A stretch of DNA of 35,015 nucleotides from the IMG/VR virus record IMGVR_UViG_3300025162_000110, positions 1-35,015 of that record; one strand, written 5' to 3'. Origin of the DNA: a virus. A program made the position numbers and the translations under genes. The notes under the pieces were generated by a model. The model searched no databases and was not told where the DNA came from. It worked only from the letters and a program-made list of their open reading frames with translations. Shown one piece after another: positions 934 to 35,015 of this stretch (its first letter is position 1; each line of letters starts with the position of its first letter).

Positions 934-1821
934 ATGCAATTTGAGCCCAATAAGAACTTCCTGCTCATCATTGAGAACAAGTTCAAGGCGTGGGAGTTCT
1001 ACTTACGCACCCGTTGGTTCTACACGGGGGAGACGCTCCGCTTCTTAAAGATGGCGCAGCCGCAAGACGGGTGTCATTTGATTATTGAAGGGGGCGACCC
1101 CGCATTCCTCAAAGTCAAATCTACAACCGTCTGTAAGTTTATGCCTCACTACTCAGAGCTCACGGCAAAGCCGGAGAAGATTCTCTGTTTGCATCTTCCC
1201 CGTAGCATTGCAGAATACAAAGCAACCTGGGGCAACGTTCATTACGTCATAGCGGATTACGTCAATCCAATTGATGGCAATCTTACTTTGTGGTATCTAA
1301 ACGCTCAGGACATGCTACGCATGATGGATGATATGTATAAAGCAAAGTCTGTTATTCTTTCAGACGGCAGAGAGGAGACTTGGTGTCAGCAAGATTTGAT
1401 TTCAGGCGTGCCCATGGATAAGTGGGTTGATTGGGGCATAGCAGAGATTGTTGATACCGTCTGCCTCAAAGAATCTTGGTTTGAGATTCAGATTCATAGG
1501 AAGGGGGCACTTCTCCCTATGCCTCATTGGCTTGAAGGAAAGAAGAAGATGGTATTCTTCAACAAGTGGGATACGGCATCAGAGGAGCAGAAGACAGCGT
1601 ATTGGACTAAGTGGCGTCTTCATCCCCGCAAGGACCAATCTAAACCGGTCATCATCTCTAACGGCGCTAAAGAGATAACTTACCCCTCTTTAGATGTTGC
1701 CGCCAAATCTTTGTCCACCCTCGGCAAGCCCGTCTCACGCCAATCTTTGTCTCAGTGTCTGAGAGGCAAATCCAAATCCGTCAGAACAGGCTTAGGCAAA
1801 GTTTCCGTTAGAGAAGCGTAG
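934..1821 (+). CDS. Unknown protein with C-terminal NUMOD1-like domain (295 aa)
   Basis: ATG at 934 follows GAAGGAGAG. Residues 1 to about 230 match nothing I recognise; they form a Trp- and Tyr-rich alpha/beta region. Residues about 238-295 look like a NUMOD1-type DNA-binding module of homing endonucleases: a beta strand (KPVIISNGAKEITYPS), then a helix-turn-helix-like stretch (LDVAAKSLSTLGKPVSRQSLSQCLRGK) with the usual pattern of a Ser before an Ala-Ala pair. No HNH or GIY-YIG catalytic motif was found in the N-terminal part, so either the nuclease domain is of an unrecognised type or the protein is a DNA-binding regulator. The C-terminus KVSVREA is identical to that of the next gene. Confidence 0.75.
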   Translation: MQFEPNKNFLLIIENKFKAWEFYLRTRWFYTGETLRFLKMAQPQDGCHLIIEGGDPAFLKVKSTTVCKFMPHYSELTAKPEKILCLHLPRSIAEYKATWGNVHYVIADYVNPIDGNLTLWYLNAQDMLRMMDDMYKAKSVILSDGREETWCQQDLISGVPMDKWVDWGIAEIVDTVCLKESWFEIQIHRKGALLPMPHWLEGKKKMVFFNKWDTASEEQKTAYWTKWRLHPRKDQSKPVIISNGAKEITYPSLDVAAKSLSTLGKPVSRQSLSQCLRGKSKSVRTGLGKVSVREA

Positions 1822-1829
1822 GCGCGGTA
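1797..1829. repeat. 33-nt direct repeat at gene 3' end, copy 1
   Basis: Identical over 33 bases to 2550-2582. It covers the codons for KVSVREA, the TAG stop and eleven following bases. It is the 3' end of the gene at 934-1821. The second copy ends the next gene, giving a 753-bp repeat-to-repeat unit that contains the whole DUF6884-like gene. Confidence 0.93.
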
Positions 1830-1851: not shown

Positions 1852-2574
1852 ATGAAATTAGCAATAGTAAACTGCGCAAAGCGCAAACAAGAGTATCCGT
1901 GCGGGCCGAGAGAGATGTATTATGGGAGCACTTTATTCCGCCGTAAACTTGCGTTCGTAGAAACTCACTACGATAATTGGATTCTTATGTCGTCTAAATA
2001 CGGAATAGTGACGCAGGATCAAGTTATAGAGCCCTATGATGCTGTAATGTCTGGTCCCGCGTATTCGCTCCGCTCAGAGAATACTGAGCCTGTATCAACT
2101 CTCCAACAGAAGAAAGAATGGGGTTTACACGTAGTAGAGCAATTGAGGACTATGATTGTCGGTTATGATGAGATAGACGCATATGTGTCTGAGGTCTACT
2201 TTATCCCCCTCCCGCATCCCTTTCCGCTGCCTATCAGATTCCTGAAGGCTAATTCTCGTGGGAAAGGACTATTCAAGTCATTACAGAAGTGGGGCGAGAT
2301 AGTTGATTCAGGACAAGATACTGAGACCTTACTTAGGCAGCAATTATTAGTTCCTGTGACAGCTCGCAATATGGAATATGTTGAGGGCCACTACAAAGAA
2401 GATGTCACCAAAGTAGTCAATTGGATACACCCAGAATACGGAACCTTCACAGGATGTGCCCGTGACATAGCAAAGAAGTATCACAAAGATGAGAGCAACT
2501 TAAAGAACGTAGCAATAGGAAAGACTAAGAGCAGTTATGGGTGGAGGCTCAAAGTTTCCGTTAGAGAAGCGTAG
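1852..2574 (+). CDS. DUF6884-like protein with NUMOD-type C-terminus (240 aa)
   Basis: ATG at 1852 follows ACGGAG. Residues 1-75 show the DUF6884/YaaA-like signature of phage proteins: LAIVNCAKRKQ, then MYYGSTLFRRK, WILMSSKYGIV and VIEPYD, where family members typically read C-x-x-x-K, LY-S-LF, WYILSAKYGL and I-PYD. The reaction is not established for this family. Residues about 190-233 (VVNWIHPEYGTFTGCARDIAKKY through YGWRLK) resemble the W-x-x-x-x-x-G...GW DNA-binding module found at the end of homing-type phage proteins. The last seven residues and 33 nucleotides are the same as in the upstream gene, suggesting insertion of this gene as a mobile cassette. Confidence 0.75.
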   Translation: MKLAIVNCAKRKQEYPCGPREMYYGSTLFRRKLAFVETHYDNWILMSSKYGIVTQDQVIEPYDAVMSGPAYSLRSENTEPVSTLQQKKEWGLHVVEQLRTMIVGYDEIDAYVSEVYFIPLPHPFPLPIRFLKANSRGKGLFKSLQKWGEIVDSGQDTETLLRQQLLVPVTARNMEYVEGHYKEDVTKVVNWIHPEYGTFTGCARDIAKKYHKDESNLKNVAIGKTKSSYGWRLKVSVREA

Positions 2575-7506: not shown

Positions 7507-9404
7507 TGGTTAAAGATGATGAAGTGACCTATGAGAGAAATGAGCAGTATGTAAGGACTGACCTCTCTCAGATGAAGTCATTCACTACGGCGCGCAATGA
7601 AAAGTATAGAGAGAATTTCAGCACCTTTTATAGCACTATGGCAATGAGCCAATCACTCACATCCAATTATAGTTATGTGTTGACGCTGCGTAATAGACAG
7701 AGAGATGAGAACGCCGGGATGATACCAGTAATGAATATCATCAGATCCTGTATAGACACTTTGGTATCTAAGATCAGCCAAAACAAAGTCAGGAAGTTCT
7801 TCAATCCCGTGTTAGGGACTTGGAGCACTATGAAAGTGTGTAGGGCTGCGCAAGTGTTCTTTGATCTGTATTATGATATGCAGCGGGTAAATAAAAAATC
7901 AGAAGAGGCATTGTATGACGCCCTCATCTTTGATATGGGTGTTATATGGATCAACGATGAAGACGCAACAGTAAATACAATCAGTCCGTGGGAGTTTGTT
8001 TGGGACGCTGCTGAGATGTCCAATGGAACATTGACGCGCTGCGGCTTTACAAGACAAGAGTATCCCCTAACGCTCCTGTTGAAAATCATTCCGAAAGACA
8101 GCCAGTGGTTCCACAAGCTTGAAACTACCCCTAATGCCAGTTGCACCTATGAAATCTACTATGACCTGATTAATAAGAAGGCTTGGGATTTTATAGATGG
8201 CAAGCTCGTCAGGACACGAGACATAGAGTATACTCGCCCGCCATTTGTATGGATGTATTTCAAAACACCAGTGAAGGGCCCATGGAGTGATAGCGTAGTA
8301 GATATACTATTCAGACTCCAAAAGTTCTATGATGGCGTTGTATATAAGATTGGCGCAGCAGTCAATAGATCTCACGCTCAAACTACCTTCATACCTACGG
8401 GCAGCGACTTGGAGAAAAGCGTATATGCTTCAAGCAAGATTGGTGATGTATTTGAGTTCAACGCCGGAGCAGCAGGCGGATTGACCAATCCAATTGTCAC
8501 AATAACTCCGCCGGTAATTGATAATCAATACTTAGCCATTCTTAATTTGATTGAAGAGAAATGCTACAACCTGATCGGTGTAAGCCAGCTCAGCGCACAA
8601 TCTAAGAAGCCTACGGGTATCAATAGCGGCGTAGCATTAGACACGCTGCAAGATGTAGAGAGTGAGAAGTTCAATAGCCTTCAAATGGCATACACGCGGC
8701 TTCAATCAGACTTGGCAGAAGTGCTTATAGATGTTCTTCCTGAGAGTGCTGATGTGCTGCCTAAGGGAGCATTCCGCAGCAATGTGAAGTGGCGGGACAT
8801 AAAGAAAGAGCGTAAGATGTTCCGCATTCAGTTCAGTGACGCAAGCACGCTTAGTAAAGATCCTAAGACTAAGATGGAGCAAGTAGAGAAACTGATCGCT
8901 ATGAAGGTAATAGATCCTACGCTCGCAGCTACCTTGTTAGAGTTTCCTGATCTTGAAACTGCCTATGGCATTCAGACTGCGGCGTATGATGAGAATGAGA
9001 AGACTATTGAACGAGCAATAGAGGACGGGCCTGAGAACACTATGGATCCTGTCACCGGTGCTGTAATACAACGCTTCAACTACTATGAGATCACCAATAC
9101 AGCTCAGTTGTATAGCCAGGCTTGTAGCACACTGATGAGGCTGGATGCTAATGATGAGGATCCTAAGTCTCTATTGAACTTGGTCAACCTCATTAAACAA
9201 GTGAAGGGCGCTATTGACATAACCAATCAAGCCTTGATGCCACCTCCACCGCCCGCTCCTCCAATGCCACCTCCGTTGCCGCCTGCTCCTCCACCAGTAA
9301 CAATCAATAACAATGGTCCGCCAATGTCTCCGGTTGACGCTCCCTTAGTGCCAGGGCCAACGGGGCCGCTGCCAATGGACTTATCTCAAAACCAGCCAAT
9401 TTAA
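7506..9404 (+). CDS. Portal protein (632 aa)
   Basis: The protein forms the ring at the unique capsid vertex through which DNA enters and leaves. Identification rests on size, on its place between terminase and scaffold, and on portal-like features: an N-terminal helical region with YRENFSTFYS and NIIRSCIDTLVSKISQNK, a wing segment (ISPWEFVWDA), and a long C-terminal helical crown with repeated QVEKLIAMKVIDP-type helices. The C-terminus (about residues 575-632) is unusually proline-rich, with runs of PPPPPAPP type, probably a flexible tail inside the head. The start overlaps the previous stop, and a 47-base gap separates it from the scaffold gene. Confidence 0.85.
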   Translation: MVKDDEVTYERNEQYVRTDLSQMKSFTTARNEKYRENFSTFYSTMAMSQSLTSNYSYVLTLRNRQRDENAGMIPVMNIIRSCIDTLVSKISQNKVRKFFNPVLGTWSTMKVCRAAQVFFDLYYDMQRVNKKSEEALYDALIFDMGVIWINDEDATVNTISPWEFVWDAAEMSNGTLTRCGFTRQEYPLTLLLKIIPKDSQWFHKLETTPNASCTYEIYYDLINKKAWDFIDGKLVRTRDIEYTRPPFVWMYFKTPVKGPWSDSVVDILFRLQKFYDGVVYKIGAAVNRSHAQTTFIPTGSDLEKSVYASSKIGDVFEFNAGAAGGLTNPIVTITPPVIDNQYLAILNLIEEKCYNLIGVSQLSAQSKKPTGINSGVALDTLQDVESEKFNSLQMAYTRLQSDLAEVLIDVLPESADVLPKGAFRSNVKWRDIKKERKMFRIQFSDASTLSKDPKTKMEQVEKLIAMKVIDPTLAATLLEFPDLETAYGIQTAAYDENEKTIERAIEDGPENTMDPVTGAVIQRFNYYEITNTAQLYSQACSTLMRLDANDEDPKSLLNLVNLIKQVKGAIDITNQALMPPPPPAPPMPPPLPPAPPPVTINNNGPPMSPVDAPLVPGPTGPLPMDLSQNQPI

Positions 9405-9451
9405 GGGACAAGGGAATACACCGCGTAAAATTTGAACTATTTAGGAGTACA

Positions 9452-10081
9452 ATGATGGGCGATTTTAACACATCCGGGCTTACCCCGGAAGAGAAACAGC
9501 AACTGATAGCTTTGCTACAAGAGGAAGGATCAGAGTCACCAGCACAGGAGCAAACAGAGATGATGGGTAATGATGATGCCGGAGCAGATGAGGATCTAAT
9601 CAGACGAATCATTGCGGAGACTGTTGGGCCCTATATGCAGAAGCTTGACCTGCTGGTAGAGGTCGTCAATGACGAGATCATTGGCGGAGTCACACAACTT
9701 GTTCAACAGAAAGAGAAGATGGCTGAGATTGAACGGCTCAAAACATCTTATGGCACCAATGACTACTTTCCTGAGGAAACACAGTCATTCTACCGAGATG
9801 CTACTGATGGAGCGGATCTCTTTGATAAGCTCTACGAAGAGATTAGCGGAGCTAAGGGAGAAGGTTCGGACTGGGGTGAAGAGAAAGAAGTCCCTATGGT
9901 CCAAGGTCTTGCATCTGGTCTCAAAGAGAAAATGATGAAGCTTAGGGGGCCCGTTGCGGAGGCTCCGGTCGCGGTCAAAGAGACTACGGTGGAATCCAAT
10001 AGTCCTGAGTTGGAGAAGCAATTGAAGCGTATCAAGGATATGAAGAAGTCAGGAAAAGCAAACGTTAAGTTAGGATATTGA
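9452..10081 (+). CDS. Putative scaffolding protein (209 aa)
   Basis: An acidic, strongly helical, low-aromatic protein lying between portal and capsid genes, the classic position and composition of a phage scaffold. It has Gln/Glu-rich stretches (EEKQQLIALLQEEGSESPAQ), a coiled-coil candidate near residues 65-100 and a basic C-terminus (KQLKRIKDMKKSGKANVKLGY), as capsid-binding scaffold tails have. ATG at 9452 or 9455 may start it; GGAG is four or seven bases upstream respectively. The last codons lie in a 24-nt repeat whose second copy, 477 bases downstream, would encode the same C-terminus, so the end of this gene was rebuilt when the HNH gene inserted. Confidence 0.75.
   Translation: MMGDFNTSGLTPEEKQQLIALLQEEGSESPAQEQTEMMGNDDAGADEDLIRRIIAETVGPYMQKLDLLVEVVNDEIIGGVTQLVQQKEKMAEIERLKTSYGTNDYFPEETQSFYRDATDGADLFDKLYEEISGAKGEGSDWGEEKEVPMVQGLASGLKEKMMKLRGPVAEAPVAVKETTVESNSPELEKQLKRIKDMKKSGKANVKLGY
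10054..10077. repeat. 24-nt direct repeat, copy 1 (current scaffold 3' end)
   Basis: Identical over 24 bases to 10531-10554. In the scaffold frame it encodes KANVKLGY, with the Tyr codon completed by the next base, followed by TGA. It marks the left boundary of the inserted HNH gene. Confidence 0.92.
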
Positions 10082-10094
10082 TTGGTAGGTAATC

Positions 10095-10124
10095 TTATAT
10101 TAGATTCATAAGGAGTCTAATATG
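10095..10124 (+). promoter_or_regulatory. Conserved leader of an HNH gene
   Basis: The segment reading TTATATTAGATT, then AAGGAG, then CTAATATG precedes this HNH gene and recurs at 12292-12322 before the second one. It contains the ribosome binding site. The shared upstream TTATATTAGATT may be a promoter or sequence carried with the element. Confidence 0.5.
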
Positions 10125-10550
10125 CATCCGGAACTGACGATTAAGCGGTTTAAGTATTGGGACTATGCCCGGATAAAATATCAGGGCAAGTGGCGCCCCT
10201 ATCACAACTATCTGTGGGAGCAGGCAAACGGACCAATCCCCAAAGGAAGTGTGATACACCACAAAGATGGGGATAAAGCCCACAACGCATTGGAGAACTT
10301 GGAGTGCTTGACTCGTGGTGAGCACTGTAAATTACATACTAAAGGCCGTCATTTGAGCGCTGAGCATAAAGCAAAGATGTTAACGGCTTTAATGGGACAC
10401 GAGGTTACTGATGAGACGAGAGCAAAGATGTCTCAGTCTCATATGGGTAAACAAGTGTCTGACGAGACTAAGGCACGAATGAAAGCCGCACAGGCTGCTC
10501 GTCGTGCGAGAGAGCAAGAGGCTCTCACGAAAAAGCAAACGTTAAGTTAG
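10122..10550 (+). CDS. Free-standing HNH homing endonuclease with NUMOD3 repeats (142 aa)
   Basis: The N-terminal HNH domain contains VIHHKDGDKAHNALENLECL (residues 45-64), with His46/His47, Asn55 and Asn59, and then EHCKLH (68-72). This is the HNH_3-type beta-beta-alpha metal nuclease. Residues about 73-130 carry NUMOD3-type repeats (LSAEHKAKMLTALMG, VTDETRAKMSQSHMG, VSDETKARMKAAQ) that bind DNA. It is inserted between scaffold and capsid genes and flanked by a duplicated scaffold 3' end, whose second copy supplies its stop codon. It lies 29 bases upstream of the intron-containing capsid gene, so it may promote its own spread and that of the intron. Confidence 0.9.
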   Translation: MHPELTIKRFKYWDYARIKYQGKWRPYHNYLWEQANGPIPKGSVIHHKDGDKAHNALENLECLTRGEHCKLHTKGRHLSAEHKAKMLTALMGHEVTDETRAKMSQSHMGKQVSDETKARMKAAQAARRAREQEALTKKQTLS

Positions 10551-10554
10551 GATA
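10531..10554. repeat. 24-nt direct repeat, copy 2 (displaced scaffold 3' end)
   Basis: Read in the scaffold frame this copy also gives KANVKLGY, followed by TAA, and it lies just before the capsid gene leader. It is therefore probably the original scaffold end. In another frame it supplies the HNH gene's last residues (KQTLS) and its TAG stop. Confidence 0.92.
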
Positions 10555-10579: not shown

Positions 10580-12229
10580 ATGCCGAATGCAGTTACATCG
10601 GATCCGGGGCTCCTTCCCATCTATAAGGAATGGTAAACATACGTGCCACTCTACGGAGTAATTCGTAGATGAGAACCGGGGAATGAAGCGGGAAGGCTTA
10701 ACTGCTAATCCGACACTGAAGACTGGATGTAATAGTTCAGTCAAGGGCAACGCATAGAGGGTGAAACCGGAAACGGAATATAATCCCTCCACGAGGCCCC
10801 GGCATCCTACCAAGGATGAAAAGATATGCTAAGCTGCTCTGGATAACCAGAGGATGAAAATGGGCGAAAGCCCCAGAGCTTAGGGTAAAAAACCTAAGGA
10901 TAATAACTACCTGACGACGACAAGAAAATGGCGGATGTCCTTTGGGCAGCGTCAAGCGTTCTTCGTGATACACAGATGACACTCGCGGGTGGAAAGTCTT
11001 ATAACTTCTCCACGAATTATAGTGCTGGTGGTGCTGCTTCCGGTAGTGCTCTCACAGCCGCAGCCAACGCTGCCAATGGTCAGGGAAAGAACGTCCAATG
11101 GGCAGTAACTCCTGGCCGTCTCTTCTCTATCTTCAACATCAATCCTCAGGAGATTATGTCTTCTGAGAACGTGCGCGGAGCATTCGTTCCGGTCCCCGTC
11201 ATCCGAATGGGTGATGGACTTGCAAGTCTTCGTCGCCTCTGGGCCATTGCGCTCTACGGCACAGGCTATGGTGAGATTGGACAGACTGGTGTAGTCCACG
11301 TGGCAAGTGATAGCGCTCCTACCACAATAGATCTTGGCAGTTATGATAAGATCGTCAAACTTGATCTTGGCGTCACCTTCCAAGTAACCAATGGTGATAC
11401 TCCTGCTGACACGCTTCGTGTCGGCGTTCACACCGTAACTCATATTGCAGGAACTCAGGTAACCATTACCTCTACTGCTGATGAGACTTGGGCTGATGAT
11501 GATTGGATCTGCATTGAGGGCTGTCGTGAAGGTTCTTCGCCGACACTCCCTGCTGGCCTTCCTTCTTGGCTTCCACTTGACAGCACCGCTGCGGCTACTA
11601 CGCTGTATGGTGTAGATCGTTCCACGTGGGTAGATCGTCTGTCAGGTAATAGACTTACCCGTCTCCACGCAGAGCCTCTCAGTGACTTCTGGGTCCGCTG
11701 TATCCTCCAGGCCCGTATTGCAGGTCAGGGCAATGAGATGATTCTCATTGCGAATCCCTTTGACTACAATGAGTTCATCACGGAGAGTAGCAACGCCACG
11801 GCACTTATGCAGCAAACGAATATGAGCGGTGCCAAGGGCAGTTCTAACTTCGTGACTCGCGGTTTGGCAGAGTCTAACTTTATGTTCCAGAATTCCTGGC
11901 TCACAAAGGTCTATGCTGATACTTATTGTCCACAAGGGACCTTCTGGATCGTAGACAAAGACACGCTTGAATTCGTGTTGCTTGGTGGTGAGAAAGTCCT
12001 CAATGACGGCATTGCTTCCAATGATCCCGGAGTCCAGAACCCCGCAGACGCGTCTCCCCCAGATTACAAGATGTTCCAGTTTATGTTGGATAGATACATC
12101 ACTATTCAGCAAGGGACAATGACTGCTGGTGGCCCTGTTGCTCAGACGGTCTTCCAGATCTACGGAAATTTCTTAATTCGTCAGCCGGGCCATTGCGTGG
12201 TCGGTAACTGCGTCGCCGCAGGCACTTAA
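10580..12229 (+). CDS. Major capsid protein gene, split by a group I intron (456 aa spliced)
   Basis: Exon 1 is 10580-10634 and exon 2 about 10914-12229. ATG at 10580 has AGGAGG seven bases upstream. Exon 1 encodes MPNAVTSDPGLLPIYKEW plus the first base of a codon; the unspliced message stops immediately (TGG TAA). Joining at a G-flanked ACG site gives KEWYDDKKMADVLWAASS and restores one frame of 456 residues. The ATG at 10928 has no ribosome binding site, so it is not the start. Identification as major capsid rests on size, position after the scaffold and a following terminator; the fold (probably HK97-like) is not provable by eye. The 3' junction could shift by three bases (G10913 or G10916). 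Confidence 0.85.
10635..10913 (+). ncRNA. Group I self-splicing intron, IA-like, in the capsid gene
   Basis: Helices readable in the sequence: P1, exon UGGU (10631-10634) with GCCA (10645-10648), giving the U-G wobble at the splice site; P2, TCTACG/CGTAGA (10650-10669); P3, CCGGGG (10676-10681) with CCCCGG (10797-10802); P6, ACTGAA/TTCAGT (10715-10741); P7, GCATA (10752-10756) with TATGC (10825-10829) in the typical AAGATATGC context; P7.1, GAGGG/CCCTC (10757-10789); P7.2, CCG-GAAA-CGG (10767-10776); P8, CATCC/GGATG (10803-10818); P9, CTCTGG-ATAA-CCAGAG (10837-10852). P10 can form between exon ACG (10914-10916) and CGT (10642-10644). P7.1/P7.2 place it in the IA group common in phages. At about 279 nt there is no room for an internal endonuclease gene. 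Confidence 0.88.
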
Positions 12230-12253: not shown

Positions 12254-12284
12254 AAGGTCCACAGAAATGTGGACCTTTATTTAT
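12254..12284 (+). terminator. Terminator hairpin after the capsid gene
   Basis: AAGGTCCACA (12254-12263) pairs perfectly with TGTGGACCTT (12268-12277) around a GAAA loop and is followed by TATTTAT. It lies 24 bases after the capsid stop codon, where a partial terminator is common; the interrupted T-tract suggests some read-through to downstream genes. Confidence 0.75.
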
Positions 12285-12291
12285 GCTGAAG

Positions 12292-12322
12292 TTATATTAG
12301 ATTTCAAAGGAGAACTAATATG
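12292..12322 (+). promoter_or_regulatory. Conserved leader of the second HNH gene
   Basis: Shares TTATATTAGATT, AAGGAG and CTAATATG, with small spacing changes, with the leader at 10095-10124. It lies just after the capsid terminator, so it may supply a promoter for the HNH gene as well as its ribosome binding site. Confidence 0.5.
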
Positions 12323-12814
12323 ACAATCAAAAGTAAATGGAGAAGCCCCCAGAGTCAACACCACTGGATGTGCCTAACAGATGAGGGGCAGATGCCGCTG
12401 GCCCGGGCAATATGGATTATAGCCTACGGCCCTATCCCAGAAGGGTTGGTTCTCCATCATCGCGACGAGGATGTGGATAACAATTGTCTGAACAACTTTG
12501 AACTTATGACTAGCGCTGCACACCAGCGACATCACCACACCGGTAAACATCAGACGGAAGAAACTAAGCGTAAAATAGGCGAAGCCAATGCTGGTAGATC
12601 TCACACTGAGGAGTGTAAACAGAAGATTTCCGAAACTACCAAGCGTGATTGGGATATGTGGCATTCTCGCACTCAATCTAAGGAAACGATAGAGCGTAAG
12701 AAACATCCTTATAGAGAGCGAACGCCGGAGGAGAAGGAAAAGTTACGTAAACATCTTTCCTCTCTTAGGGCAGGAGTAAAAAGAGGCCCATATAAGCCTC
12801 GGCAATCCGCATAG
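12320..12814 (+). CDS. Free-standing HNH homing endonuclease (164 aa)
   Basis: ATG at 12320 follows AAAGGAGAACTAAT. The HNH core is LVLHHRDEDVDNNCLNNFEL (residues 43-62), with His46/47, Asn54/55 and Asn58/59, then HQRHHH (68-73). NUMOD3-type repeats follow (QTEETKRKIGEANAG, HTEECKQKISETT), then a basic tail (RERTPEEKEKLRKHL). Its N-terminal layout (short beta region, then Y-G-P-I-P-E-G before HH) matches the HNH genes at 10122 and 18384, so the three are relatives. It sits between the capsid terminator and the adaptor gene, on the opposite side of the intron-bearing gene from the first HNH. No duplicated host-gene end was seen here. Confidence 0.88.
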   Translation: MTIKSKWRSPQSQHHWMCLTDEGQMPLARAIWIIAYGPIPEGLVLHHRDEDVDNNCLNNFELMTSAAHQRHHHTGKHQTEETKRKIGEANAGRSHTEECKQKISETTKRDWDMWHSRTQSKETIERKKHPYRERTPEEKEKLRKHLSSLRAGVKRGPYKPRQSA

Positions 12815-12881: not shown

Positions 12882-14279
12882 ATGACAACCTATGCATCAG
12901 AACTGGTAAAGTATGCGCGTTCATTAGCCAATATTCCCTCCGCACAATATGTTTCTCATAATGATGAAGTCCAATCACTCAGCCACAGCTACAAAGATGT
13001 CTACACTAAGATAGCCTTCGCCAAAGCAGCATATGATTATATGACTATTGGCCCTGTGTCATTAGATATGACCACAGCAGTGCAGATTGGCAATGGTGAG
13101 TGGGAGATTGCCCTTCCTGATAATGTCTATTCTCTCCGCTATGTAGATTACCGCTACAATGGATACTGGAATCCTATGCTCACCTTCAATATCAACCAAC
13201 GCAATAAACTTGGTGGTCAATCAATGTATAGGTGGCTGGGAGAGAAACTATGGGTAATAGGGATCCTTCCTTCTGAGATACGCATTAGATATTTTCCTCC
13301 TCCTAGTCTGATTAGCACGCCGGATGTATCTTATCAATACGCATTGCAATATCAGATCTACGAGTTGCCAGGAGTATCACAACCTCAGTATTTCAGTTTG
13401 CCGGATCCCGTAAATGAGGGTGACAATGACTATTGCCTGTATACCTATAATGGCACCACAATCACTCTTGAATCATACAGTCTAAATACCGTTCAAGTCT
13501 TGTATACGGGCACTTCTATTAGCCAAGCACTATACTGGCTGGGCTACATTTATTTCCTTGAAGGCGGAGATATCTGGCGTGTAACAACTAACCTTGTCTC
13601 AACGGGTGTTCCTGTCAACCTTACAGCAAGCACTAACGCCATCACCAATTTTTCTATTACCGCAGACAATAAATTAGCCTACTCCACATCCACAGATACC
13701 TATTTCAATACGCTGAGTGGGTCTTCTGAGGCCCTCATCTATCCCTATGCTACCAAGGATCTGTGTTTATATACTACGGGCAACTACGCTTATATCAAAA
13801 GCAGTTCTGATGCTGTGTATATCAATAACACGATTGTGGGAACTGCGGTAGTCCAGAACTTAGCCTCAGACGGTATCTATTTATACTACCTCAACCAAAA
13901 CGGGGCTATACATAGAATGACATTAGATAACACAGCCGGCTATGCTGTATTAGGAGATTACCTTTTATATACTGGGATGGACTATATGGGCCCGTGGTGG
14001 GATAACAGACTCCCCATTGTTGACTTGCAGTATAATGTCAAAGCAGTATCTTCATTAGAAGATAGTGAACTTAAATACCCGCTTAATGAGGCGTGGGAGA
14101 TTATGGCGTATCAGTCAGCAATAGACTACAAGAGAAAGGCTGAGGGTGATATCAATGCATTGCAACAAAGATTGAATGAGATATGGGCCCGCTTTGAAAT
14201 AGCCTTACAGCGGGATAGCGGTCAAGCAGAACATAGTGTTCCTGAGACTGAGTTCTATGGCACTTGGGGTGGATACTAA
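12882..14279 (+). CDS. Head-tail adaptor-like protein with large inserted beta domain (465 aa)
   Basis: Residues 1 to about 145 (helical MTTYASELVKYARSLANI, then a beta region with EIALPDNVYSLRYVDY) and residues about 390-445 (LEDSELKYPLNEAWEIM, then helical YQSAIDYKRKAEGDINALQQ) resemble the two halves of a podovirus tail adaptor (P22 gp4 or T7 gp11 type), which binds under the portal. Between them, residues about 150-385 form a beta-rich insertion with repeated short strands around I/Y-W-L, Y-Y-L and IYFLEGGDIWRV motifs, like beta-propeller blades. Usual adaptors are 150-250 residues, so this one is doubled by the insertion. The stop overlaps the next start (TAATG). Confidence 0.6.
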   Translation: MTTYASELVKYARSLANIPSAQYVSHNDEVQSLSHSYKDVYTKIAFAKAAYDYMTIGPVSLDMTTAVQIGNGEWEIALPDNVYSLRYVDYRYNGYWNPMLTFNINQRNKLGGQSMYRWLGEKLWVIGILPSEIRIRYFPPPSLISTPDVSYQYALQYQIYELPGVSQPQYFSLPDPVNEGDNDYCLYTYNGTTITLESYSLNTVQVLYTGTSISQALYWLGYIYFLEGGDIWRVTTNLVSTGVPVNLTASTNAITNFSITADNKLAYSTSTDTYFNTLSGSSEALIYPYATKDLCLYTTGNYAYIKSSSDAVYINNTIVGTAVVQNLASDGIYLYYLNQNGAIHRMTLDNTAGYAVLGDYLLYTGMDYMGPWWDNRLPIVDLQYNVKAVSSLEDSELKYPLNEAWEIMAYQSAIDYKRKAEGDINALQQRLNEIWARFEIALQRDSGQAEHSVPETEFYGTWGGY

Positions 14280-17164: not shown

Positions 17165-18391
17165 ATGGGTGGCGGATTCTTGGGTAGTATATCGGATGCC
17201 TTCTCGGGTGCGAATGTGGATGCGGCTAACGCAAAAGCGGATGCTGCTGCTAAACAGGCTGCGGCTGAGGCTGCTGCTGCTCAATCTGGGCTTACTGCTG
17301 CAACTGCAAAGGCTGGTGCTGAGGCTGCAACTGCTCAGGGCAACTTGGCAACAGGAACGCAGTATACACAGAACCAAGCAGCGCAAGCGCAAGGTCAGTT
17401 AGGTGCGGCATCAGCCAATCTTGGTGGACTCAACGCCAATCAGTTGGTAGCACAGAACATAGCAGCACAGCAACAAGCCAAGATGACTGGTGGTGCTAAT
17501 GCTTCTATGGGCTCTAATGCTGCTGAGATGCAAGCCAACGCTCAGAGAGCATCACAGGGCTTAGCGGCACGGCAAGGGGAGCAAGCAGCAAGTGGTGCAG
17601 CGGCCGCAGGTGTTCAAGCAGCACGGACTTCGGGGCTGAACAAAGGTATGGCTGCATTGGCTGGTGGTGCTGCCGGAGGCAATGCTTACGGTAGTGCTTA
17701 CACAAGCGGTGTCAACACAGGAATGAATCAGTATGGACAAAATACATCTCAGTTTGCTAATCAAGGCAATGCGGCTGCGGGCCAAGCCAATCAGGCTGCT
17801 GCTAATCAGTATGGCGGTGTTGGTGCACAGGGCAGTCTTGCTGGTCAAGCAGGTTCTTTAGGTCTACAGGCAGGAGCACAGACAAGTCAGAATGCTGCTA
17901 CTGGCGGGACATTAGGATTGAATGCTTCTGGCCAAGCAGGGACTAATGCGAATGCTGGTGGAACATTAGGATTGGCTGCAACAGGTCAAGCAGCACAGAA
18001 CGCACAGGCACAGGCTGCTGCCGCTGCCGCTTCTAATGCTGGTGTTATGTCTGGTATAGGACAAGCCGCTGGTGCTGCGGGTAGTTTGATTATGTCGGAT
18101 GAAAATCAAAAAAAGAATATTACTTCCTCAAAGGGGAATCTTGATGAGTTGCTTCGGAAAATTAGGCCTGTGGATTTCAAATATAGAGAATCAAGCGGGG
18201 AGAATCCAGAACCAGAACATACCGGTGTGATAGCGCAGGACTTAGAGAAGACTCCATTAGCCAGCACCGTGGTAGACACTCCTCAAGGAAAGCAGATTGA
18301 TTCTGCCGCTCTAAATCCCGCATTGCTCAATCTTATATTAGAATTAGCCGGAGAGGTCCGAGATATAAGAAGGGGTAAGAAAGATGCATAG
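17165..18391 (+). CDS. Ala/Gln-rich structural protein with S74 chaperone C-terminus (408 aa)
   Basis: ATG at 17165 follows AAAGGAGAGATAAT. Residues 1 to about 310 are low-complexity Ala/Gly/Gln/Asn with helical heptads (AAAKQAAAEAAAAQ) and repeated GTLGLNASGQAGTNANAGGTL units. Residues about 311-408 are a peptidase S74-type intramolecular chaperone: MSDENQKKNI, LLRKIRPVDFKYRE, HTGVIAQDLEKT, then a final helix LLNLILELAGEVRDI. This domain usually trimerises fibre or neck proteins and then self-cleaves at the Ser of S-D-x-x-x-K-x-N-I. It is probably a tail or ejection-channel component. The C-terminal codons overlap the start of an HNH gene. Confidence 0.75.
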   Translation: MGGGFLGSISDAFSGANVDAANAKADAAAKQAAAEAAAAQSGLTAATAKAGAEAATAQGNLATGTQYTQNQAAQAQGQLGAASANLGGLNANQLVAQNIAAQQQAKMTGGANASMGSNAAEMQANAQRASQGLAARQGEQAASGAAAAGVQAARTSGLNKGMAALAGGAAGGNAYGSAYTSGVNTGMNQYGQNTSQFANQGNAAAGQANQAAANQYGGVGAQGSLAGQAGSLGLQAGAQTSQNAATGGTLGLNASGQAGTNANAGGTLGLAATGQAAQNAQAQAAAAAASNAGVMSGIGQAAGAAGSLIMSDENQKKNITSSKGNLDELLRKIRPVDFKYRESSGENPEPEHTGVIAQDLEKTPLASTVVDTPQGKQIDSAALNPALLNLILELAGEVRDIRRGKKDA

Positions 18392-18938
18392 CGCCACAAC
18401 AAATCAGACAGTAGATGCCAACGGGTATGCTCGTTTGGGTAAGGAGTATGTACACATAATGGTGTGGACTTCTACCAACGGCCCAGTACCAACAGGGTAT
18501 CTTATTCATCATTGGGACTGGAATAAATTGAACAACTCCTTGGATAATTTGGTTTGTGTAACTCCCGCAGAGCACATAAAGATACACCGTGGGGGCATGC
18601 CCCATTCAGCGGAGTGGAATGCAAACATTTCTGCTTCTCTTAAAGGCAAGAAGCGCCGCCCACACACTGAGGAGTGGAAGAAGATGATGTCAGAAAGAAA
18701 TTTTGGTGAGAAGAACGGCTTCTATGGTAAGCATCATACAGAAGAATCAAAGAAGGCTTGTGCCTCCGTACACATTGGAGTTCCTGAGACAGAGGGATCT
18801 AATAGGAAGCGTAGTGAAGCCCTGAAAGGAAAGAAGAAGGGCCCGCAATCAGAGGCTCACAAGGCAAACCTTTCCCTTTCTCATAAGGGAAAGCCTTGGA
18901 GTGAAGCCCGCAGAGCAGCGTGCAAAGGAAGTAAATAA
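18384..18938 (+). CDS. Free-standing HNH homing endonuclease (184 aa)
   Basis: ATG at 18384 overlaps the end of the S74 protein gene by eight bases, with AAGGGG upstream. The HNH core is YLIHHWDWNKLNNSLDNLVCV (residues 39-59; His42/43, Asn50/51, Asn55), followed by EHIKIH (63-68). Four to five NUMOD3-type repeats make up the rest (HTEEWKKMMSERNFG, HTEESKKACASVHIG, QSEAHKANLSLSHKG). Its stop codon nearly abuts the next start (TAA then TAATG), so it is inserted seamlessly between two structural genes. It is related to the other two HNH proteins in the window. Confidence 0.88.
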   Translation: MHSATTNQTVDANGYARLGKEYVHIMVWTSTNGPVPTGYLIHHWDWNKLNNSLDNLVCVTPAEHIKIHRGGMPHSAEWNANISASLKGKKRRPHTEEWKKMMSERNFGEKNGFYGKHHTEESKKACASVHIGVPETEGSNRKRSEALKGKKKGPQSEAHKANLSLSHKGKPWSEARRAACKGSK

Positions 18939-33810: not shown

Positions 33811-34184
33811 AATTTCCTCCATCCGCTTGGCAATTTCTCATACACATCACCCGTGACTGGATCTAGGTATTCTCCTAATAAACAGGTATACACAATGGCG
33901 TGATTCCCCTTAGGCGTAGAAACCAGCATAATCTCCGCTGAGCAAATGTTGTACTTATCTAAGATATCCAGTAGTAGCAGCGCCATCCCTCCACAATTGG
34001 CGGTGCGAGTTCTTAGCGTGACATCCGGCTTTTGGGATTCAGCAAGGGTCGTGTAGTAGTGGGCGTATTTTATGTGGCTGTGAACCCATTGGGTGGCGTC
34101 TTCTTTGGACATAGCGGAGAAGTTCTGCGCGAAGACAGCCGTGATGCCGGCCATCAGAATGAACACTATCACGGCTTTACGCAT
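33807..34184 (-). CDS. Exported transglutaminase-like protein (125 aa)
   Basis: ATG at 34184 follows GGGAGGCAAAGTAA. Residues 1-19 are a signal peptide (MRKAVIVFILMAGITAVFA) with a likely cut before Gln20; the cut site is AxA-like only in part. The mature part has the transglutaminase-like catalytic order: TANCGGMALLLLDIL (C64 at the start of a helix), GNHAIVY (H95) and EYLDPVTG (D108). This Cys-His-Asp arrangement serves proteases, amidases or transamidases. An exported phage protein of this kind would act in the periplasm or cell envelope. At about 105 mature residues it is a minimal version of the fold. The substrate is unknown. Confidence 0.7.
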   Translation of the reverse strand: MRKAVIVFILMAGITAVFAQNFSAMSKEDATQWVHSHIKYAHYYTTLAESQKPDVTLRTRTANCGGMALLLLDILDKYNICSAEIMLVSTPKGNHAIVYTCLLGEYLDPVTGDVYEKLPSGWRKL

Positions 34185-34198
34185 TTACTTTGCCTCCC

Positions 34199-34666
34199 TT
34201 ACGCCGTTACTGGGTGACAGACAACGCTGCCAAAGGCGGAGAACTCATAGCAGATATCCCCAACATCCGGAATCTTGAAGGAAATCTGGAACTTGTCCGT
34301 TTCCTTCTGGTAGGCCGGGAGAAGATTCTTCAGGAACGCCCCAGTGGAGGAGAAGTTGTTCTTCACAATCTCCCTATCAAGGCGGTCAAGAATAGAAGTG
34401 GGGATGACCATCTGCCTTGGGGCGTGTTCCTCATCATCCGTCTCACAGAGAATCTGGGTCATAGGCAATCCCTGAGTTTCCTCATACTGCTTGACCACCA
34501 GATTGCCCATCAGTGTGTTGTCTATGAATGCTATGGTGCGGCTCTCATAGACGGCGTCAAGGAACGCAGAGGCCCCTTCAATATTGAGACTCTTGACGTT
34601 CTCCTGATTGTAGCGCTCCTGATTCCACCCACTTCCCTTGTTCCACTTAGCCTTCTTGGTAGCCAT
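34199..34666 (-). CDS. Hypothetical protein (155 aa)
   Basis: ATG at 34666 abuts the stop of the upstream acidic gene, whose final codons contain its GGAGG. The protein starts MATKKAKWNKGSGWNQERYN and is alpha/beta, with an acidic middle (ETDDEEHAPRQMVIPTSILDR) and a C-terminal beta part (FQISFKIPDVGDICYEF). It resembles no family I can name; a single-stranded-DNA-binding or regulatory role cannot be argued from the sequence. It is translated between the acidic protein and the transglutaminase-like protein. Confidence 0.65.
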   Translation of the reverse strand: MATKKAKWNKGSGWNQERYNQENVKSLNIEGASAFLDAVYESRTIAFIDNTLMGNLVVKQYEETQGLPMTQILCETDDEEHAPRQMVIPTSILDRLDREIVKNNFSSTGAFLKNLLPAYQKETDKFQISFKIPDVGDICYEFSAFGSVVCHPVTA

Positions 34667-34933
34667 TTACTTTGCCTCCTCTTCCTCTTCCTCTTCCTCT
34701 TCTTCGTCTTCCCACCCATACTCACGGGCAACGCCGGAGTCATCATAGATGCTGGCATCAACAAAGTCATACACCTCTTCAAGCTCTTCTTGGGTAGGCT
34801 CTCCGTCATAGAGAGTTGTCAGGATGAAGTCAGTGTCCTCTTCAAGCCACTCCTCAGAGTCACTTTCCGCCGCTATGTCTTCCTGAGCCCCATCCAGTTC
34901 AGAACGGATGTCTTTCCAGCGTTCCTGTGTCAT
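34667..34933 (-). CDS. Highly acidic small protein (88 aa)
   Basis: ATG at 34933 has GGAG six bases upstream; a TTG further upstream is not needed. The protein starts MTQERWKDIRSELDG, is very rich in Asp and Glu, and ends in a run of about ten Glu followed by Ala-Lys. Those last codons give the ribosome binding site for the next gene. It appears paralogous to the partial protein at 1-164. Strongly acidic small phage proteins may mimic DNA or bind basic host proteins; that is only a possibility here. Confidence 0.7.
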   Translation of the reverse strand: MTQERWKDIRSELDGAQEDIAAESDSEEWLEEDTDFILTTLYDGEPTQEELEEVYDFVDASIYDDSGVAREYGWEDEEEEEEEEEEAK

Positions 34934-35015
34934 TTGTGACTCCTTACGCAAAGATTTTGATGATGACCAGAACTGTGAAGACTATCCACGCCGCTAGGGA
35001 AATAAGGACGTTGAA
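34930..35015. repeat. 86-nt direct repeat, right copy (cut by window edge)
   Basis: Second copy of the segment at 410-495, in the same orientation, running off the end of the window. It may reflect tandem duplication of the small membrane-protein gene or the redundancy of a genome end. Confidence 0.9.
34944..35015 (-). CDS. Small membrane protein, second copy, 5' end cut by window edge
   Basis: The last 23 residues of the 46-aa membrane protein at 424-564 are repeated here (ending IVFTVLVIIKIFA), with Ala in place of Val at one position. The start lies beyond the window. It precedes an acidic MTQ-type gene just as the left copy does. Confidence 0.75.
   Translation of the reverse strand, partial: FNVLISLAAWIVFTVLVIIKIFA

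Follow-up and report, generated by a model that had tools for sequence, protein, structure and literature searches.

How can a free-standing endonuclease gene enter a dense phage genome beside a scaffold gene and leave that gene whole? The entry of free-standing homing genes into such genomes is seldom visible, because the junctions erode. We analyzed a case in a single uncultured virus contig (IMG/VR record IMGVR_UViG_3300025162_000110, 35,015 nt, from a gut-type phage), the whole of which is called the window below. Here, both junctions of an inserted HNH gene (HNH1) are readable, and the same genome holds a second insert with the same anatomy. The individual parts are of known kinds; what is unusual is their combination and the presence of another gene that was inserted likewise.

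The scaffold gene end and the HNH1 insertion

The features at the scaffold end are as follows.

9452 to 10081, plus strand: scaffold-protein gene, 209 aa, ending KANVKLGY-TGA on repeat copy 1 (portal gene on one side and capsid gene on the other; aligns weakly with the scaffold of a relative)
10054 to 10077, plus strand: repeat copy 1, the 3' end that the scaffold gene uses (exact repeat compared with shuffles)
10122 to 10550, plus strand: HNH1, a free-standing HNH_3 plus NUMOD3 endonuclease gene, 142 aa (Pfam PF13392, 8e-15, and PF07460, 2e-9; PHROG HNH families)
10531 to 10554, plus strand: repeat copy 2, where HNH1 has its final codons and stop (exact repeat; frame reading)

The sequence AAAAGCAAACGTTAAGTTAGGATA is found at 10054-10077 and again, at an offset of 477 nt, at 10531-10554, with 24/24 identical positions. 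First-order (Markov) shuffling of a 2-kb stretch, repeated 300 times, gave exact repeats of at most 14 nt, which bears out the recurrence reported in the initial annotation, and a search of the whole 35,015-nt record at up to 3 mismatches yielded no third copy. Copy 1 corresponds to the final eight scaffold codons minus the last base. As had also been claimed, both copies read KANVKLGY and then a stop in the scaffold frame (TAT TGA in copy 1 and TAC TAA in copy 2), and HNH1 ends on copy 2 in another frame (...KKQTLS-TAG). Past the exact match, the next four bases differ between the copies at two positions, and both differences (TAT/TAC and TGA/TAA) are synonymous. The scaffold reading frame is whole in the window, and copy 2 is likely the old scaffold end, reused by HNH1; the arrival of HNH1 left the scaffold gene whole because the gene end is present in two copies. 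HNH1 itself has an HNH nuclease domain and a DNA-binding module, both PF13392 and PF07460 scoring above their curated cut-offs.

We then looked for relatives of the phage. Exact 8-residue peptides from the capsid and terminase retrieved none from the viral and genome collections, and phage isolates yielded no tblastn hit to the capsid, the portal, or one tail protein. A degenerate portal motif identified a first relative, and a two-sequence portal alignment identified more, namely, 25 viral loci and 4 loci in bacterial assemblies labeled Treponema (two from horse feces) and Clostridia (yak rectum). Their proteins match portal, terminase, and major-head PHROGs, and their portals are 31 to 38% identical to that of the window phage. 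At about 30% protein identity, the comparison concerns proteins and gene order, the relatives being too distant for a DNA-level empty site or for co-conversion.

The scaffold-capsid junction was visible in 26 relatives. In 24 of these, the scaffold runs directly into the capsid gene, with 14 to 47 nt and no HNH gene between the stop of the ORF in the scaffold position and the capsid ATG; a direct join in HNH-free relatives is among the things that the initial annotation had proposed to look for. Of the two exceptions, L053 carries a 282-aa ORF of no Pfam family between the scaffold and capsid genes (9396-10241), in the slot of HNH1, and L058 has a capsid region broken into two ORFs. The three HNH genes of the window had no match in the 298,530 nt of the relatives' loci and are absent from all 26 relatives. 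Judged from these sequences, HNH1 is an insertion between the scaffold and capsid genes, because 24/26 relatives join the two genes directly and are HNH-free throughout their loci. Deletion of one 477-bp repeat unit in silico leaves 21 nt between the scaffold TAA and the capsid ATG, within the range of the relatives. The presence of HNH1 at this conserved junction is patchy, as for a homing endonuclease gene. A search for close relatives of HNH1 with an informative context found none.

The split capsid gene

Downstream of copy 2, we distinguished the following features.

10580 to 10634, plus strand: exon 1 of the major capsid gene, ATG CCG ... TGG T (the predicted spliced protein aligns from residue 4 with the uninterrupted capsid genes of relatives)
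10635 to 10913, plus strand: probable group I intron, 279 nt, ORF-less, with P3 at 10676-10681/10797-10802 and P7 at 10752-10756/10825-10829 (identity to gyrA introns; covarying helices; splice context of L015)
10914 to 12229, plus strand: exon 2 of the major capsid gene, HK97-type fold (alignment to relatives; PHROGs; structure model)
12254 to 12277, plus strand: terminator-like hairpin 3' of the capsid gene
12320 to 12814, plus strand: HNH2, a second free-standing HNH_3 plus NUMOD3 gene, on the other side of the capsid gene (Pfam domains; no flanking repeat)

The stretch after copy 2 had been taken for a capsid leader; instead, the capsid gene begins there, with its start codon and exon 1, and the probable group I intron comes next, so that the capsid start annotation of the record is corrected accordingly. 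The ATG at 10580 opens MPNAVTSDPGLLPIYKEW and then meets a stop, and the capsid frame resumes at 10914. Splicing is supported by the joined exons, which align with the intact capsid genes of relatives. The intron site is uninterrupted in the capsid ORF of 25/26 relatives (all but L058), and the tyrosine whose codon would be split by the intron is conserved in all 25. Like HNH1, the intron is best read as an insertion in the lineage of the window phage. When modeled (mean pLDDT, 66.6), the capsid protein matched HK97-type capsids, that of phage SU10 first. One candidate relative proposed by an exon-junction peptide pattern (L009) was rejected as an unrelated phage.

We then analyzed the intron sequence, which shows 67 to 73% DNA identity to introns in gyrA (DNA gyrase A) of phages phiR1-37, AR9, and the related Goe21. 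In an alignment of five introns, the helices read as P3, P4, P6, P7, P7.1, P8, and P9 with its extensions pair in 97.5% of the cells, and 18/48 pairs have changes on both sides, compared to 8.6 in shuffles (0/500 shuffles scored as high). P3 covaries, with C-G, U-A, A-U, and G-C at one position among the five introns, and P7 (GCAUA/UAUGC) is invariant across the five sequences. The proposed splice sites are TGGT^AAAC ... ACCTG^ACGA, such that exon 1 ends in U and the intron in G, and by reading, the guide pairs with exon 1 in P1 (GAAUGGU/GCCACUC, with one mismatch) and in P10 (CGU/ACG). These features are those of a group I intron, probably of subgroup IA. Rfam gave no match at the gathering score in the window, and no group I model reached an E value of 1 or lower in the intron region. 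This is no bar to the class, as a database match is not a molecular property and the structural features are present. A related group I intron with the same 5' start (GGT^AAA) occurs in phage L015, whose capsid gene is unrelated; there, it begins inside the 3' end of that gene (13289-13458), and a Vsr-like endonuclease ORF lies downstream.

Introns in phage capsid genes are known from mycobacteriophage LittleE and lactococcal phage Tuc2009 (PMC3706429). The window resembles these in having a splicing intron, here predicted, in a highly expressed capsid gene. The LittleE intron carries its own endonuclease ORF, whereas that of the window is ORF-less and akin to the gyrA introns of phiR1-37 and PBS1-like phages.

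Endonuclease genes around the capsid gene

HNH1 and HNH2 bracket the capsid gene. The window has a third free-standing HNH gene, HNH3 (18384-18938), which lies between two tail-region genes and lacks flanking repeats. The bracketing of an essential gene by homing-endonuclease genes recalls HEG islands (PMC10448857), from which the window differs in that a single gene, the capsid gene, is bracketed and that no near-identical island was found elsewhere. From the stop of HNH1 (10550) to the start of the intron (10635), the spacing is 84 nt, and the intron has no ORF on the coding strand. A free-standing HNH1 beside an ORF-less intron is, in its arrangement, the layout of collaborative homing, which has been described for F-CphI beside the intron-containing psbA of cyanophage S-PM2 and also for T3/T7-like phages and the ICP1 terminase (PMC6083498, PMC10448857). 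As in those systems, the free-standing endonuclease gene adjoins the intron-split gene, and it lies beside the N-terminal exon as in ICP1. Unlike in the described cases, the host gene is that of the major capsid protein, the enzyme is of the HNH_3/NUMOD3 type, the endonuclease gene lies between two copies of its neighbor's end, and homing is predicted from the layout.

We propose, with a probability of roughly 0.6, that HNH1 is a homing gene that entered by break repair with duplication of the gene end and that is paired with the intron in collaborative homing. A break near the scaffold stop would have been repaired from a template carrying HNH1, and repair synthesis returning slightly upstream of the break would have duplicated the scaffold 3' end; selection would keep only the events that leave the essential scaffold gene whole. 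HNH1 or HNH2 would cut intron-free capsid genes, repair would then copy the endonuclease gene and the intron together, and the intron would shield the capsid site of its own host from cutting. The partnership of HNH1 or HNH2 with the intron is what we infer from the layout. An ORF-less intron in the gene adjoining such an endonuclease gene is the situation thought to give rise to a composite mobile intron, and concrete cutting and recombination tests become possible at the HNH1/capsid locus.

HNH1 and the intron might instead be unrelated neighbors, with HNH1 homing elsewhere (for example, to the intergenic slot or the end of the scaffold gene) and the intron being an immobile relic that has lost its endonuclease gene. 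Homing genes gather near capsid and terminase genes generally (PMC10448857), L053 holds another gene in the scaffold-capsid slot, and related introns seem to carry endonuclease genes of their own (the phiR1-37 ORF upstream of the core and the Vsr-like ORF of L015). Against such separate arrivals, the 84-nt spacing, the ORF-less intron, and the two flanking endonuclease genes fit collaborative-homing loci (PMC6083498, PMC10448857), and we consider chance proximity rather unlikely.

Inspection of the HNH1 and HNH2 starts revealed two predicted hairpins.

10096 to 10124, plus strand: hairpin burying the Shine-Dalgarno sequence and AUG of HNH1 (z = -3.2 compared with shuffles)
12293 to 12322, plus strand: hairpin burying the Shine-Dalgarno sequence and AUG of HNH2 (z = -4.6 compared with shuffles)

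The two are predicted to be similar (TATATTAG...AAGGAG...CTAATATG), and their motif has no other occurrence in the window and was absent from all 100 shuffles. Upstream of HNH3, there is a weaker hairpin (z = -1.2). Homing endonuclease genes of T4 and Aeh1, among them mobE, I-TevI, and segB, are controlled by hairpins (PMC2988022). The predicted burial of the ribosome-binding site in the window is of the kind found in this T4-type control; unlike in T4 and Aeh1, no late promoter was identified inside the window hairpins, and the start codon is buried too. The start-codon hairpins probably keep translation of the endonucleases low, as judged from the folding models. A search of viral_contigs with the hairpin and Shine-Dalgarno pattern returned one other match, at the start of a PDDEXK_5 (PD-(D/E)XK) endonuclease gene; this match (L060, 4059-4090, minus strand) lies in an unrelated 180-kb virus contig.

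A second duplicated gene end and the origin of the repeats

A second case of the anatomy seen at HNH1 was found elsewhere in the window.

1797 to 1829, plus strand: copy 1 of the second repeat, the 3' end and stop of gene A (934-1821) (33/33 identical)
1852 to 2574, plus strand: inserted gene B, coding for a DUF6884 protein and ending on copy 2 (2550-2582) (PF21818, 1e-18)

The two 33-nt copies are identical at 33/33 positions and delimit a unit of 753 bp. Genes A and B both end in ...KVSVREA and a stop, in the same frame. Outside the fiber gene, the 24- and 33-nt pairs are the two longest repeats in the window with copies more than 60 nt and less than 3 kb apart. Against phage isolates, gene A had no match and gene B had weak, partial matches only. 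Gene B, which shows the same duplication, is not a known endonuclease, and 3'-end duplication may thus have no tie to endonuclease action. Flanking 3'-end repeats of at least 14 nt were looked for and not found at HNH2 or HNH3, and the other phage HNH or endonuclease loci examined had none either, a single 13-nt repeat being at chance level; 3'-end duplication thus does not regularly accompany such genes.

The duplicated end could have been carried in from another phage, in the way that fungal mitochondrial mobile ORFs displace the old gene end downstream. Such ORFs with duplicated C termini are known from Allomyces atp6 and from Glomus atp6, atp9, cox2, and nad3, and the two gene ends differ there, the new one being foreign (PMC3630166). 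The layout is the same at HNH1, with an endonuclease gene at the 3' end of a gene, an upstream copy that completes the host gene, and another copy that stays downstream; the synonymous-only differences just beyond the exact repeat also speak for a foreign end. The window differs from the fungal cases in that it belongs to a phage, that the enzyme is of the HNH rather than the LAGLIDADG or GIY-YIG type, and that eight codons only are duplicated, too few for assigning an origin. A duplicated end and a whole host ORF are found as in fungi, and a diverged inserted end is not: the copies are identical over 24 nt, compared to 63.5% identity between the Glomus atp6 copies (PMC3630166). Of the initial proposal that the insert had brought or duplicated the scaffold end without damage, the insertion (24/26 relatives without an HNH gene) and the intact scaffold frame hold; a foreign end, given two copies without a difference over 24 nt, we regard as rather unlikely. 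With identical 24-nt copies, the duplicate may have been brought in from another phage or have arisen locally.

A transposase or integrase could also have left the flanking repeats, as a target-site duplication or as a pair of attachment sites, since the genome has two such one-gene units, each enclosed by direct repeats at the 3' ends of genes. The unit ends have no inverted repeats, neither unit encodes such an enzyme (the HNH1 unit holds the HNH ORF only), and the repeat lengths are unequal (24 and 33 nt), which makes this origin improbable. The record is an uncultured virus contig, and an assembly error is nevertheless very improbable, both copies lying in intact, unlike gene contexts with unlike flanks.

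Two cases of the same anatomy in one 35-kb genome hint at a common route, which two cases do not establish. Entry of HNH1 by break repair with end duplication might then be one of two snapshots, the DUF6884 gene being the other, of a lineage that acquires genes singly, through a form of repair that regularly duplicates seven or eight codons at the end of the gene upstream; we regard this broader proposal as doubtful. If true, inserts beside essential genes would be harmless, and the pair of direct repeats would also permit clean loss. Elsewhere in the record, the last 86 nt (34930-35015) repeat positions 410-495 with one mismatch, which represents a duplicated sequence and not a clean terminal overlap, as it covers a leader and the start of minus-strand genes at both places. 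Two minus-strand genes share a 16-nt repeat (34182-34197 and 34664-34679) that forms their ribosome-binding site and start codon.
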